Assembly (NCBI GenBank): GCA_016868395.1
Contig: VGGW01000008.1
Span: 1-32,730, forward strand
Reading direction: 5' to 3'
Length of the DNA: 32,730 nucleotides
Source of the DNA: Bacteroidota bacterium
Lineage (GTDB): Bacteria > Bacteroidota > Bacteroidia > Sphingobacteriales > Sphingobacteriaceae
Part shown: positions 3,459 to 27,404 of the stretch, piece by piece
How positions within the stretch are numbered: position 1 is the first letter of the stretch
Layout of the letters: each line of letters begins with the position of its first letter
Notes under the pieces: generated by a model
Database searches by the model: none
Told to the model about the DNA's origin: nothing
Seen by the model: only the letters and a program-made list of their open reading frames with translations
Position numbers and translations under genes: made by a program

Positions 3459-3896
3459 ATGTACTCTAGCTTATTTGGTCTACACTCCGGACTTCGATAT
3501 ATAGTCCTTTTGTTACTTGTAATTGCCTTATTATTGGCTTTAATCGGATTATTTGCAAAGAAGCCTTATACTCAAGCCAACCGCAAAATCAATTTATTTG
3601 CAATGATCTTTACACACACCCAGTTTCTGGTTGGATTGATCCTCTATTTTTTTAGTCCGCTGGTTAATTTTTCTGACATGGGTGCGGCCATGAAAGATAC
3701 CCAAACCAGGTACTGGACTGTAGAGCACCTGGTTATGATGCTTTTTGCAATTGTTTTGATTACCATTGGTCATTCGCGTTCCAAAAAAGCGTCAGATGCT
3801 TTTAATAAACACAGATCAATAGTTTTGTATTATGGTCTGGCAGTTTTGGTTATTGTGGTGGCAATTTATCAGAGTGGTCGCCCGATTTTGGGGTAA
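3459..3896 (+). CDS. Small four-helix membrane protein, cytochrome b-like
   Basis: A 145-residue integral membrane protein with four predicted hydrophobic helices (roughly residues 12-32, 45-65, 88-105 and 121-140). Histidines sit near helix ends (HSGLRY near the N-terminus, FTHTQF in helix 2, VEHLVMM in helix 3, IGHSRSKK after it), an arrangement that would suit haem ligation. Proteins of this type in Bacteroidota are often labelled cytochrome b-like, but the haem assignment here is an inference from histidine placement. It follows the lipoprotein gene and precedes the trp leader region. No clear terminator of its own is visible. Confidence 0.8.
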   Translation: MYSSLFGLHSGLRYIVLLLLVIALLLALIGLFAKKPYTQANRKINLFAMIFTHTQFLVGLILYFFSPLVNFSDMGAAMKDTQTRYWTVEHLVMMLFAIVLITIGHSRSKKASDAFNKHRSIVLYYGLAVLVIVVAIYQSGRPILG

Positions 3897-3967
3897 ATAA
3901 TCCTGAATTCTCGGGGAATAATTAAAACATGTAAAATTGAAAAAATTTGCTTTCTCAAATTTCTTTA

Positions 3968-3975
3968 TATTTTTG
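3968..3975 (+). promoter_or_regulatory. Candidate trp operon promoter
   Basis: TATTTTTG matches TAnnTTTG, with TTTG at 3946-3949 lying 18 nt upstream as a -33 element. This is close to the consensus spacing. It would start transcription near 3980, almost on the leader ORF's ATG (3979 or 3982), implying a nearly leaderless message. A weaker box, TAAAATTG at 3932-3939 (one mismatch), would give a longer 5' leader and is the alternative. Confidence 0.45.
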
Positions 3976-3978
3976 TCA

Positions 3979-4056
3979 ATGATGAGTTTCAAACAAAATA
4001 CTGCAAATTGGTGGTGCATGGTAGAAAAGGGCCAAGGGGATAGGTATTTTGATTAA
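3979..4056 (+). CDS. trpL: Tryptophan leader peptide (attenuator control peptide)
   Basis: A 25-codon ORF begins with two consecutive ATG codons and ends in TAA. Residues 11-15 read NWWCM: tandem TGG codons at 4009-4014 in an otherwise ordinary short peptide. It sits 105 bp upstream of trpE and is followed, 27 nt after its stop, by a strong intrinsic terminator. Tandem Trp codons in a short ORF between a promoter and a terminator ahead of trpE are the hallmark of ribosome-mediated attenuation, as in the Escherichia coli trp leader. The peptide itself is not expected to have another job. Assignment rests on position, codons and RNA layout, not on homology. Confidence 0.75.
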   Translation: MMSFKQNTANWWCMVEKGQGDRYFD

Positions 4057-4116
4057 ATCTAAAAAGCAAAACCTAAAAAATACAAAACCCGACGCCCTGA
4101 GACGTCGGGTTTTTTT
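4029..4116 (+). promoter_or_regulatory. trp attenuator: antiterminator/terminator switch
   Basis: Two exclusive folds can be drawn. Terminator: 4084-4094 with 4103-4113. Antiterminator: GGGC at 4029-4032 with GCCC at 4094-4097 plus GGG at 4036-4038 with CCC at 4088-4090, separated by a symmetric 3x3 internal loop; this would occupy the terminator's 5' arm. A ribosome stalled at the Trp codons (4009-4014) would leave 4029-4038 free and allow antitermination; one that reaches the stop codon at 4054-4056 would cover it and allow termination. A weaker hairpin, 4043-4052 with 4067-4074, may also form. Pairings were found by eye, and the antiterminator is only seven pairs. Confidence 0.6.
4084..4116 (+). 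terminator. Intrinsic terminator upstream of trpE
   Basis: The 11-bp stem AAAACCCGACG (4084-4094) with its perfect complement (4103-4113) has an eight-base loop and a run of Ts to 4116. It ends 44 bp before the trpE start, so it is positioned to control the operon, and could also end read-through from the gene at 3459. Confidence 0.9.
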
Positions 4117-4160
4117 ATGTTATTTGATCGCAAAACAACCCAGATGATCAGACAAAAAAA

Positions 4161-5576
4161 ATGATTATGAAAAACTATAAATTATACACTTCCCACAAGA
4201 AATTACTGGCCGATACCACAACTCCGGTGAGTATTTATTTGCGTTTACGTGATGTTTTTCCGAACAGTATATTGCTTGAAAGCTCTGATTATCATAGTAG
4301 AGAAAATAGTTTGAGTTATGTTTGCTGTGACCCCATTGCAGGTATAGTTTTAACTGATGATCAATTGAAAACCTATTTTCCTGACGGCCAAAGGGAGCAA
4401 TTTCCCTTGAAAGATCTGGATTTAAAGAAACACGTTTCAACGTTTAGAAAACAATTTGAATCTGCGGCAGCAGATGATTTTAAATTTATTTCAAATGGCT
4501 TATTCGGCTATTTTGCCTATGAAACGATAGAGCATTTCGAGGACATCAAATTACATTCTAAGTCTGCTTATGGAAGAGAAATCCCATTGATGCAGTATCA
4601 CATTTACAGGTATATTATTGTCATAGACCATTTCAAGAATGAATTATACCTCATTGAACACAGGCCAGAAAAAAATACAGATCAGGGTATTGATAAAATA
4701 CAGTATTTGATTCAGAATAAAAATTTTCCGGAGTATAAATTCAGTTTGAACGGGACTGAACAATCTAACTTTACGGATGAACAATTTATTAGTTTGGTAG
4801 AGCATGTAAAACAACACGTTTACCGGGGTGATGTTTTTCAAATTGTTCCCTCCAGAGCATTTTCTACACCATTTTTAGGAGATGAATTTAATGTTTATCG
4901 TGCCTTACGTTCCATCAATCCCTCTCCTTATCTATTTTACTTTGATTACGGTGATTTCAAATTGTTTGGGTCTTCGCCGGAAGCGCAGTTGACCATAAAG
5001 AATAATATCGCAACGATTTATCCTATTGCAGGCACTTTTAAAAGAACAGGGAATAGTCATCAGGATGCCGAACTTGCCGAAAGCTTGAAAAAAGATGTTA
5101 AGGAGAATGCTGAACATGTCATGTTGGTCGATCTTGCAAGAAATGATTTAAGCAGGCATTGCCACAAAGTAGAAGTCAAGTCATTTAAAGAAATCCAATA
5201 TTATTCACACTTGATTCATATGGTTTCTAAAGTTACCGGGCAATTGCAAAGTTCGGTCGATCCTTTTGATGTGGTTGGAGATACTTATCCCGCCGGCACC
5301 CTCAGCGGAGCACCAAAATATATGGCCATGCAGTTGATAGATCGTTTTGAGGGGCAGAAGCGTGGGTTTTACAGCGGAGCAATCGGATTTATGGGTTTCA
5401 ACGGTGATTTTAATCATGCAATCATGATACGATCGTTTCTTAGCCAGAATAATGTGCTGCATTACCAGGCGGGTGCAGGCATTGTGGCAGATTCAGATCC
5501 TAAAAGTGAGTTAAATGAAGTAAATAACAAGATTATGGCATTAAGAAGGGCTTTGGAGATGGCAGGTGAATTATAA
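4161..5576 (+). CDS. trpE: Anthranilate synthase component I
   Basis: TrpE converts chorismate to anthranilate using ammonia supplied by TrpG, the first committed step to tryptophan. The 471-residue product matches the family. The N-terminal domain carries LLES at 38-41, the motif that forms the tryptophan feedback site, so the enzyme is probably inhibited by its end product; this also argues for TrpE over PabB or isochorismate synthase. The chorismate-binding domain shows VFQIVPSRAFS (225-235), SPYLFYFDYG, PIAGTFKR (288-295), ENAEHVMLVDLARND (315-329), YPAGTLSGAPK (376-386) and GAGIVADSDPKSE (438-450). ATGs at 4161 and 4167 are both possible starts. It is the first structural gene after the leader attenuator; trpG follows after 76 bp. 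Confidence 0.97.
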   Translation: MIMKNYKLYTSHKKLLADTTTPVSIYLRLRDVFPNSILLESSDYHSRENSLSYVCCDPIAGIVLTDDQLKTYFPDGQREQFPLKDLDLKKHVSTFRKQFESAAADDFKFISNGLFGYFAYETIEHFEDIKLHSKSAYGREIPLMQYHIYRYIIVIDHFKNELYLIEHRPEKNTDQGIDKIQYLIQNKNFPEYKFSLNGTEQSNFTDEQFISLVEHVKQHVYRGDVFQIVPSRAFSTPFLGDEFNVYRALRSINPSPYLFYFDYGDFKLFGSSPEAQLTIKNNIATIYPIAGTFKRTGNSHQDAELAESLKKDVKENAEHVMLVDLARNDLSRHCHKVEVKSFKEIQYYSHLIHMVSKVTGQLQSSVDPFDVVGDTYPAGTLSGAPKYMAMQLIDRFEGQKRGFYSGAIGFMGFNGDFNHAIMIRSFLSQNNVLHYQAGAGIVADSDPKSELNEVNNKIMALRRALEMAGEL

Positions 5577-5652: not shown

Positions 5653-6216
5653 ATGAATATTTTAGTAATAGATAATTACGATTCTTTTACCTTTAACTTG
5701 GTACATCTTTTGAATGAAACTGGACATCAGGCTACGGTTTGGAGAAATGACAAATTCAATTTGTCTGATGTGAATGATTTTGAAAAAATCTTACTTTCTC
5801 CCGGGCCCGGCATTCCATCAGAATCCGGACTCCTACTCGATGTAATCAGAATGTACTCATCCAGTAAAAGTATTTTGGGTATTTGTTTGGGCTTACAAGC
5901 GATAGCAGAGGTTTTTGGAGGCGAGTTGTATAATCTGTCGCGTCCTGTTCATGGTAGAGCCACTGAAATTACAGTTCTTGATAAAAATGAAAAATTGTTT
6001 AGCGATTGTCCACAACAATTTAAAGTTGGAAGATACCATTCATGGGCAGTACGTAAAGAAGTCATTCCTGATGAGATTAAAGTAACCGCCATTGATACTA
6101 AAGGAGTAATAATGGCTTTAAGTCACCTCAGGCTTGATGTGAGAGGGGTGCAGTTTCATCCTGAATCAGTTCTAACTGAACATGGAAAATTAATGATTTC
6201 TAATTGGCTAAGTTGA
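5653..6216 (+). CDS. trpG: Anthranilate synthase component II (glutamine amidotransferase)
   Basis: TrpG hydrolyses glutamine and channels ammonia to TrpE. The 187-residue protein is a complete class I amidotransferase domain: oxyanion segment SPGPG (49-53), nucleophile Cys78 in LGICLGLQAIAE, and catalytic His169 and Glu171 in VQFHPES. The RYHSW segment near residue 127 is typical of the TrpG/PabA group. In some bacteria the same subunit also serves PabB for folate synthesis. It sits between trpE and trpC, only 16 bp from trpC, with no trpD fused to it or following it. Confidence 0.96.
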   Translation: MNILVIDNYDSFTFNLVHLLNETGHQATVWRNDKFNLSDVNDFEKILLSPGPGIPSESGLLLDVIRMYSSSKSILGICLGLQAIAEVFGGELYNLSRPVHGRATEITVLDKNEKLFSDCPQQFKVGRYHSWAVRKEVIPDEIKVTAIDTKGVIMALSHLRLDVRGVQFHPESVLTEHGKLMISNWLS

Positions 6217-6232: not shown

Positions 6233-7063
6233 ATGACGGTTAAAGGTAAAAAATATGGGCAGGAGTCTGGCAGAACAATTCTTGATAAGATTGTTCAAAA
6301 GAAAAGGGAAGAAATTGAACTGGCAAAACGCAGGACTACGATTGAACAACTTCAGTTACTTGAATTTTTTAATAGGGAATGCTTTGTTTTACGTGATTTT
6401 ATTTTAGATCCAAAACGTACAGGGATCATTGCTGAGTTTAAGCGTCGTTCTCCATCCAAAGGAACTATAAATGATCATTCATCCGTTCAGGAGGTGACCA
6501 ATGCTTATGATGAAGCCGGGGCGTCCGCACTTTCTATCCTGACCGACTTTAATTTCTTTGGGGGTAAAGATCAGGATTTACTTGATGCAAGAGCAGTCAA
6601 TAAGCTTCCCTTGTTGAGAAAAGATTTTATTCTTGATGAATACCAGATCACTGAGGCAAAAGCACTGGGAGCTGATATTATATTGCTTATTGCCGCTATT
6701 TTGACTCCCAAGGAAGTCCACAGGCTCGCAAAGTATGCCAAAAATCTGGGTATGAATGTTTTGCTTGAAGTTCACAACAAAGAAGAACTAGACAGAAGTT
6801 TGGCAGATGATTTGGATGCTGTAGGAGTTAACAATAGAAATTTGGCTGATTTTTCGGTTTCAGTCCGGCATTCTCATGACCTTGTTGATCATATTCCTTC
6901 TCGGTTTCTGAAAATTTCTGAGAGTGGTATCAGCCATCCTGAAACCATTATGGAATTGAGAGCTGCAGGATTCGATGGTTTTTTAATCGGAGAAAACTTT
7001 ATGAAGGAAGCCAACCCGGGATTATCTATGAAGGCTTTTGTATCCCGCATTCACCATTCATGA
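6233..7063 (+). CDS. trpC: Indole-3-glycerol-phosphate synthase
   Basis: TrpC closes the indole ring from carboxyphenylamino-deoxyribulose phosphate. The 276-residue protein is a (beta/alpha)8 barrel with the signature IIAEFKRRSPSKGTI at about 65-79 (catalytic Lys70 in FKRRSPS), SILTDFNFFGG, LLRKDFILDEYQI, LLEVHNKEEL, VGVNNRNL and the phosphate-binding end KISESGI followed by GFLIGENFM. It is monofunctional: no TrpF domain follows. The N-terminus is about ten residues longer than usual, so a later start near ILDKIV is possible, though no other ATG is available there. It ends the trp unit here: trpD, normally between trpG and trpC in this phylum, is absent, and so are trpF, trpB and trpA. Confidence 0.96.
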   Translation: MTVKGKKYGQESGRTILDKIVQKKREEIELAKRRTTIEQLQLLEFFNRECFVLRDFILDPKRTGIIAEFKRRSPSKGTINDHSSVQEVTNAYDEAGASALSILTDFNFFGGKDQDLLDARAVNKLPLLRKDFILDEYQITEAKALGADIILLIAAILTPKEVHRLAKYAKNLGMNVLLEVHNKEELDRSLADDLDAVGVNNRNLADFSVSVRHSHDLVDHIPSRFLKISESGISHPETIMELRAAGFDGFLIGENFMKEANPGLSMKAFVSRIHHS

Positions 7064-25996: not shown

Positions 25997-27253
25997 TTAA
26001 GCAATATTAAATGCTTTTTTAACCGGTTCAATATAATCTAATTTTTCCCAAGTAAACAGCTCAACTTCAACGGTTTTGCTATCGCCATTGTTTCCTGAAA
26101 AAGTTTTGCTTATCACTTCACTTTGACGTCCCATATGACCATAAGCTGCGGTTTCAGAATAAATTGGATTACGAAGTTTTAAGCGGGTTTCGATTCCATA
26201 TGGAGTCATATCAAAAATGGCAGATATTTTTTGTGCAATCTCACCATCATTTAAACCAACCTTTGAAGTTCCATAAGTATCGACGAATATTCCCATCGGG
26301 TCTTTAACACCAATAGCATAAGAAACCTGTACCAATATCTCACTACAAACTCCTGCGGCGACTAAATTTTTTGCAATATGTCGAGTGGCATAAGCTGCCG
26401 AACGATCTACTTTTGAAGGGTCTTTTCCTGAGAATGCACCACCACCATGAGCACCTTTTCCACCGTAAGTGTCCACAATGATTTTACGGCCGGTTAGTCC
26501 GGTATCTCCATGTGGTCCTCCGATTACAAATTTTCCGGTAGGATTGATGTGATATTTTATGTCAGATGTGAAAAGTTTCTGAAGTTCCGGTTTAAGTTGC
26601 GCTTTTATTCTTGGAATGAGAATGGATATAATATCCTCCTGAATTTTTCTCTGCATGGTTATTTCTGTATCAAAGTCATCATGCTGAGTAGATACCACAA
26701 TTGCATCAATACGAATTGGTTTGTGATCATCACCATATTCAATGGTAACCTGCGATTTCGCATCAGGTCTAAGATATTTAATTGCAGAGTTCTCTCTCCG
26801 AAGGACAGCAAGCTCTGTTAAAATCTTATGTGCCAGATCTAAAGCCAATGGCATATAATTATCAGTTTCGCTGGTGGCATATCCAAACATCATACCTTGA
26901 TCCCCTGCACCTTGGTCTTGTTTCTTTACTCTTTCTACCCCCTGATTGATATCTGCCGATTGTTCATGAATCGCTGAAATAACACCGCAAGAATCAGCCT
27001 CAAACATATATTCAGACTTGGTATAACCAATTTTTCGAACCACTTCACGAGCAATTTTTTGTACGTCCAGGTAAGTTTGTGATTTAACTTCTCCTGCTAA
27101 TACAACCAAACCCGTGGTAACTAAAGTTTCACAGGCAACTTTTGAATCAGGATCCCAGGCTAAAAAGTTGTCAATTAATGCATCTGAAATCTGGTCAGCC
27201 ACTTTATCCGGGTGGCCTTCTGATACTGATTCGGAGGTAAATAAATAAGGCAT
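25997..27253 (-). CDS. metK: S-adenosylmethionine synthase
   Basis: MetK makes S-adenosylmethionine from methionine and ATP as a cytoplasmic tetramer. The 418-residue protein starts [20 protein letters not shown] with the methionine/ATP-binding His, then [17 protein letters not shown] (ATP loop), and the signature [20 protein letters not shown] with the catalytic Lys and Asp, and [18 protein letters not shown]. The length is somewhat above that of the 384-residue E. coli enzyme, as usual in Bacteroidota. The 5' leader (27254-27412) shows no recognisable SAM riboswitch. The Nudix gene follows after about 70 bp. Confidence 0.97.
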
Positions 27254-27404
27254 AGTGTGTCAATTAATATTAAAAAATGAGATGTTTTAATGTGTTGCGA
27301 AAAAAGATGGAAGGAAATTGATCGAAGTAAAAATCAGCAAATTGTTTTAGCACTTTTTTTTACGTGGTTGCAATCAACGCAAATCGATCCACTTTCTCGC
27401 ACAA

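Follow-up and report, generated by a model that had tools for sequence, protein, structure and literature searches.

A predicted Trp-codon transcription attenuator ahead of trpE-trpG-trpC in a Sphingobacteriaceae genome, with wide conservation among sampled Bacteroidota

We found that trpE, trpG and trpC of this Sphingobacteriaceae genome are very probably controlled by a classical ribosome-mediated, Trp-codon transcription attenuator, as judged from the sequence and its comparison with relatives. The elements of this attenuator, their conservation, covariation and spacing come directly from computation. In the window, the whole stretch of 32,730 nucleotides that was analyzed, a short open reading frame (ORF) with TGG TGG and an intrinsic terminator lie, in this order, upstream of trpE-trpG-trpC.

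Results

Leader ORF and local layout

The leader ORF and the genes behind it are located as follows.

3982..4056, + strand: leader peptide ORF (trpL), 24 codons, peptide MSFKQNTANWWCMVEKGQGDRYFD, from the sequence and comparison with relatives
4009..4014, + strand: tandem Trp codons TGG TGG, predicted regulatory codons; Trp pair or triplet in 69/73 family leaders
4161..5576, + strand: trpE, anthranilate synthase component I, start at 4161 or 4167 (TIGR00564, PF04715, PF00425)
5653..6216, + strand: trpG, anthranilate synthase component II (TIGR00566)
6233..7063, + strand: trpC, indole-3-glycerol phosphate synthase (PF00218, NF001377)

The ORF with tandem TGG codons at 4009–4014, the terminator at 4084–4116 and trpE behind it all lie where a preliminary description of this DNA had placed them. 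That description had the ORF begin at 3979, in the longest frame (3979–4056), which encodes MMSFKQNTANWWCMVEKGQGDRYFD and ends in a stop codon at 4054–4056; the second ATG (3982) is the likelier start, since the −7 promoter box ends at 3975. None of 2000 dinucleotide shuffles of positions 3900–4160 gave a Trp-pair ORF and a terminator in a comparable layout. Given that the folding energy of the entire 171-nt leader was ordinary (z −0.17), the case rests on layout and conservation.

Promoter and leader start

3946..3949, + strand: −33-like promoter element TTTG, from the sequence; many relatives also have it, ~18–20 nt 5′ of the −7 box
3968..3975, + strand: Bacteroidota −7 promoter box TATTTTTG (consensus TAnnTTTG), by match to the consensus (PMC6847099); conserved near leader starts
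3980..3981, + strand: predicted transcription start, placed 4–5 nt past the −7 box

In Flavobacterium johnsoniae, transcription starts 4–5 nt downstream of such a −7 box (PMC6847099). Given that the box in the window ends at 3975, 6 nt 5′ of the second ATG, this usual spacing puts the expected start at 3980–3981, so that the transcript would lack part of the ATG at 3979 and would have 1–2 nt ahead of an ORF that begins at 3982. The leader ORF is thus probably leaderless or near-leaderless, and the ATG at 3979 is probably not transcribed intact. In 68/69 family leaders, 10 nt or less separated a −7 box (5-of-6 match) from the start codon of the leader, and the box-to-start spacing peaked at 6–7 nt across all leaders; a strict box 3–10 nt before the start was present in 70% of all 99 leaders, compared with ~1% in shuffled upstream sequence. 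Among other Bacteroidia, 16/30 leaders had the short spacing, and many Flavobacteriaceae had a spacing of 15–18 nt. A near-leaderless start is unusual in the phylum, given that ~3.7% of 5′ UTRs are shorter than 10 nt in B. thetaiotaomicron (PMC7366714) and that 5.5% of mRNAs are leaderless in F. psychrophilum (PMC9723704).

The promoter also bears on whether the hairpin, ~190 nt beyond the end of the upstream gene (3459–3896), could merely be the terminator of that gene, with the ORF present by chance. This distance would allow it; however, the promoter box at 3968–3975 intervenes, shuffled sequence did not reproduce the layout, and most of the sampled family genomes carry the same element ahead of trpE, with a related one before trpD. 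We therefore give this explanation almost no weight.

Conservation of the Trp-codon leader

TrpE was searched in 101 Sphingobacteriaceae genomes and was present in 86, and upstream regions were gathered from 73; the TrpE proteins of the closest named relatives, Daejeonella genomes of the same family, were 91–92% identical. In 69/73 family genomes, trpE was preceded by a terminator and, ahead of that, by a short ORF encoding WW, WWW or W-x-W. Three of the four exceptions (L045, L056 and L060, all of one genus) had a single Trp codon and kept the promoter, the same terminator and the layout, and the short ORF of the fourth (L071) had two Trp codons set apart from each other, with the terminator also kept. 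Beyond the family, a Trp-codon leader preceded trpE in 33/40 other Bacteroidia genomes whose upstream sequence was long enough, and such a leader was present in 14/20 phylum genomes sampled outside the class. Where trpE lay behind trpB, as in three of the remaining Bacteroidia genomes (L168–L170), the Trp-codon leader and terminator preceded the operon-opening trpB. A strict automatic rule applied to 80 named genomes (e.g., Pedobacter, Sphingobacterium, Mucilaginibacter, Pontibacter, Arenibacter, and Olleya) found the element in 67, and several genomes missed by this rule (Parapedobacter) do have it by eye.

Given that W-x-W (WLW, WQW) replaces WW in L057, L062–L064, L068, L118–L119 and others, including named Pedobacter genomes, the key Trp codons need not be adjacent. 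The position of the intrinsic terminator between the leader ORF and the first structural gene was the same in relatives. Conserved Trp codons and competing stems, which the preliminary description had put forward as a check, were kept with their spacing across family, class, and phylum, and the rarity in Bacteroidota that it had implied gives way to an element that is common in the phylum. Trp attenuation has been studied mainly in Proteobacteria, and for such a mechanism the wide conservation among the sampled Bacteroidota is unexpected. In family genomes of genera g6, g11, g23 and g24 (1.0–2.4 Mb, some incomplete), no match to TrpE reached the threshold used, which suggests that these small genomes lost tryptophan synthesis.

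Competing folds

4028..4038, + strand: region 2, predicted antiterminator 5′ strand (paired at 4028–4032 and 4036–4038), from folding and comparison
4044..4050, + strand: inner antiterminator helix, 5′ strand (partner 4077–4083), from the fold of 4027–4099
4077..4083, + strand: inner antiterminator helix, 3′ strand (partner 4044–4050), from the fold of 4027–4099
4084..4098, + strand: region 3, terminator 5′ strand at 4084–4094 and antiterminator 3′ strand at 4088–4090 and 4094–4098
4103..4116, + strand: region 4, terminator 3′ strand at 4103–4113, U tract at 4110–4116

The terminator hairpin (4084–4113, stem −16 kcal/mol) leads into seven T residues at 4110–4116. An alternative pairing had been proposed to block this terminator, and it is real in the minimum-energy fold of the 4027–4099 transcript (−18.4 kcal/mol), which joins 4028–4032 to 4094–4098 (AGGGC:GCCCU), 4036–4038 to 4088–4090 (GGG:CCC), and 4044–4050 to 4077–4083 (GUAUUUU:AAAAUAC). 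The proposed stalling geometry also agrees with the sequence, as the start of region 2 is 13 nt past the last Trp codon and its end is 15 nt short of the stop codon. The antiterminator of this window is interrupted, an internal loop dividing it into 5 + 3 bp (pairing 0.57), and the full-length RNA at equilibrium prefers the terminator (0.94). Across leaders, full-length RNA in the stalled state likewise favored the terminator at equilibrium (0.84 on average vs 0.11 for the antiterminator). Given this preference once region 4 is present, antitermination must be kinetic, which is usual for ribosome-mediated attenuation. In partial transcripts with a stalled ribosome, the mean probability of 2:3 pairing exceeded 0.5 in 93/99 leaders, and 3:4 (terminator) pairs formed at 0.96 on average for a ribosome placed at the stop codon. 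The 1:2 protector or pause hairpin had a family mean of −8.1, compared with −7.0 when permuted, with 24% passing shuffles at 0.05; in this window, such a hairpin was not evident.

Spacing and covariation of the antiterminator

Region 2 began 7–25 nt (median ~14) after the last Trp codon in the 99 complete sets, and the terminator started 47–83 nt after that codon in all 99; measured from the end of the stop codon, region 2 started between 44 nt before and 9 nt after. At this spacing, a stalled ribosome would not cover region 2. The duplex of regions 2 and 3 averaged −13.0 kcal/mol, compared with −7.4 with shuffled region 2. Own 2/3 pairs beat swapped pairs (z about −9, 0/100,000 permutations) across 43 genera represented by one sequence each, a design that does not fully remove shared ancestry. 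The preliminary description had pointed to covariation in both folds as a check, and the antiterminator strands do covary, both in this comparison and in individual leaders: in L062 and L064, region 3 reads CCCTGCG, region 4 offers AGGG-type partners and region 2 the matching A, and in L048 a GATG in region 3 is matched by CATC in both regions 2 and 4. About one third of family members have an unpaired antiterminator position, usually A opposite C. Overall, sequence comparison strongly supports an antiterminator that cannot coexist with the terminator.

The frame in which the GCGCCGGG motif of region 2 is translated varies, giving Ser-Ala-Gly (SAG), Arg-Arg-Glu (RRE) or Cys-Ala-Gly (CAG), and in L010, L028 and L055-type leaders the motif or its equivalent is located past the stop codon. 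Given that it is kept in different frames or past the stop, selection acts on the RNA and not on the peptide. As a conserved protein motif, GCGCCGGG was rejected, since its reading frame shifts between relatives.

A short Trp-rich ORF ahead of a Trp-related operon would also suit a TnaC-like nascent-peptide arrest sensor of free tryptophan, in which the peptide sequence, and not charged tRNA-Trp, would be sensed. However, outside the Trp residues the peptides diverge widely between genera and their ends differ, the downstream motif is conserved as RNA, and the layout is explained by an intrinsic terminator with a covarying antiterminator, so that we consider such a sensor very improbable. We attach similarly little probability to a non-translational RNA device (T-box, TRAP-type site, or riboswitch) that drives the terminator while the ORF is incidental. 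T-box and TRAP systems do use terminator/antiterminator pairs, but no Rfam family, T-box or other riboswitch, matched the leader at threshold, and the Trp codons, at a fixed distance from region 2, are kept throughout the class and recur across the phylum. Sub-threshold Rfam matches (e.g., STnc240 and Leu_leader) resemble generic terminator hairpins.

Proposed mechanism

For the Trp-codon attenuator, which we favor, we infer leader translation, ribosome stalling, the transcription start and the response to tryptophan as follows. Transcription would start at ~3980 from the Bacteroidota-type promoter, so that the leader mRNA would begin 1–2 nt before the AUG. With ample charged tRNA-Trp, the ribosome would pass 4009–4014, reach the stop codon at 4054–4056 and block the pairing of region 2; region 3 would then pair with region 4, and RNA polymerase would terminate at ~4116. 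If charged tRNA-Trp runs short, the ribosome would stall at the Trp codons and leave region 2 free to pair with region 3 once the latter is made, the terminator would come too late, and trpEGC would be transcribed.

The other half of the pathway

The next gene after trpC is hflX, and the adjoining part of the window therefore holds no further trp genes. The remaining genes, trpD, trpF, trpB and trpA, are together on another contig of the same genome, and the preliminary claim that the attenuator governs trpE-trpG-trpC alone holds for this copy. The draft assembly of the genome has 320 contigs, and given that the trpD-F-B-A contig ends inside trpD, the upstream control region of trpD is missing from the assembly. 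In 14/14 relatives (L124–L137; 13 in a first scan and L129 in a wider scan), trpD is preceded by its own Trp-codon attenuator. The sequence of this attenuator differs, with a terminator that is usually AGGGUUGCC...GGCAACCCU and a region 2 of UUGGCAAUC. Pairing in the trpD leaders was far beyond shuffles (−10.6 vs −6.3), and the comparison of own with swapped pairs revealed no covariation in them, because the sequences are too alike. The split pathway thus appears to be controlled twice in the relatives, by the same principle with unrelated RNA, and by extension the same may hold for the present genome.

A pattern search of the genome itself (promoter box, ATG, TGGTGG) returned 66 matches across many contigs, compared with 23 in a reversed control; only the trp leader stood out on inspection, and as the frame was not checked for each match, the search is uninformative on other genes sharing this control. 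Elsewhere in the window, a SAM-II riboswitch (RF01726, 56.6 bits) is located at 27337–27398 on the − strand, directly upstream of an S-adenosylmethionine synthetase gene (25997–27253, − strand).

Discussion

The leader studied here shows the testable features that define trp attenuators of the leader-peptide type, as far as sequence can tell, and the mechanism is a known one. It resembles the trp leader of E. coli and other enterobacteria (RF00513 Trp_leader) in its tandem Trp codons, short leader ORF, intrinsic terminator, competing antiterminator and trpE as the first gene. Unlike in the enterobacterial leader, translation here probably has a leaderless start, the 1:2 hairpin is weakly supported, and the trp genes are in two operons. 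Sequence homology to it was not detectable with the RF00513 covariance model (16.9 bits vs a cut-off of 41).

Comparative studies by Vitreschak, Lyubetsky and colleagues in the 2000s reportedly listed attenuator candidates in Bacteroidetes. We found no experimental characterization in Bacteroidota in the searched open literature, which omits most subscription journals. Within the same phylum, strong signs that leader peptides attenuate amino-acid operons were described for F. psychrophilum, with trp genes unnamed in the main text; covariation, phylum breadth and a leaderless start were not found in the searched text of that study (PMC9723704). In the Sinorhizobium meliloti trpL-trpE(G) attenuator (rnTrpL/peTrpL), the RNA 5′ end is the trpL ATG, and there, as probably here, a leaderless trpL precedes trpE(G) in a split trp pathway (PMC7298713). 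A leaderless trpL in itself is therefore not new. S. meliloti belongs to another phylum and its attenuator has another sequence, and only trpE(G) is attenuated there (PMC7298713), whereas trpD-F-B-A of the Sphingobacteriaceae relatives examined also has a predicted attenuator of its own. Of interest here are the breadth of the element in the phylum, the probable leaderless start and the apparent double control, as the mechanism itself is not new. Given that no Rfam family covers this element, current RNA annotation misses it across a major phylum.

Attenuation needs the first ribosome to follow close behind RNA polymerase. To our knowledge, Shine-Dalgarno initiation is absent in Bacteroidota, and the broad conservation of the attenuator therefore implies that transcription and translation are coupled in this phylum, for which the attenuator would be a natural reporter. 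On balance, we lean toward a broader picture in which tryptophan synthesis throughout Bacteroidota would be ancestrally under the control of Trp attenuation, the leaderless leader ORF of Sphingobacteriaceae would pair ribosome and RNA polymerase from the first nucleotides, and the two halves of the split pathway would each be under their own, sequence-unrelated attenuator.
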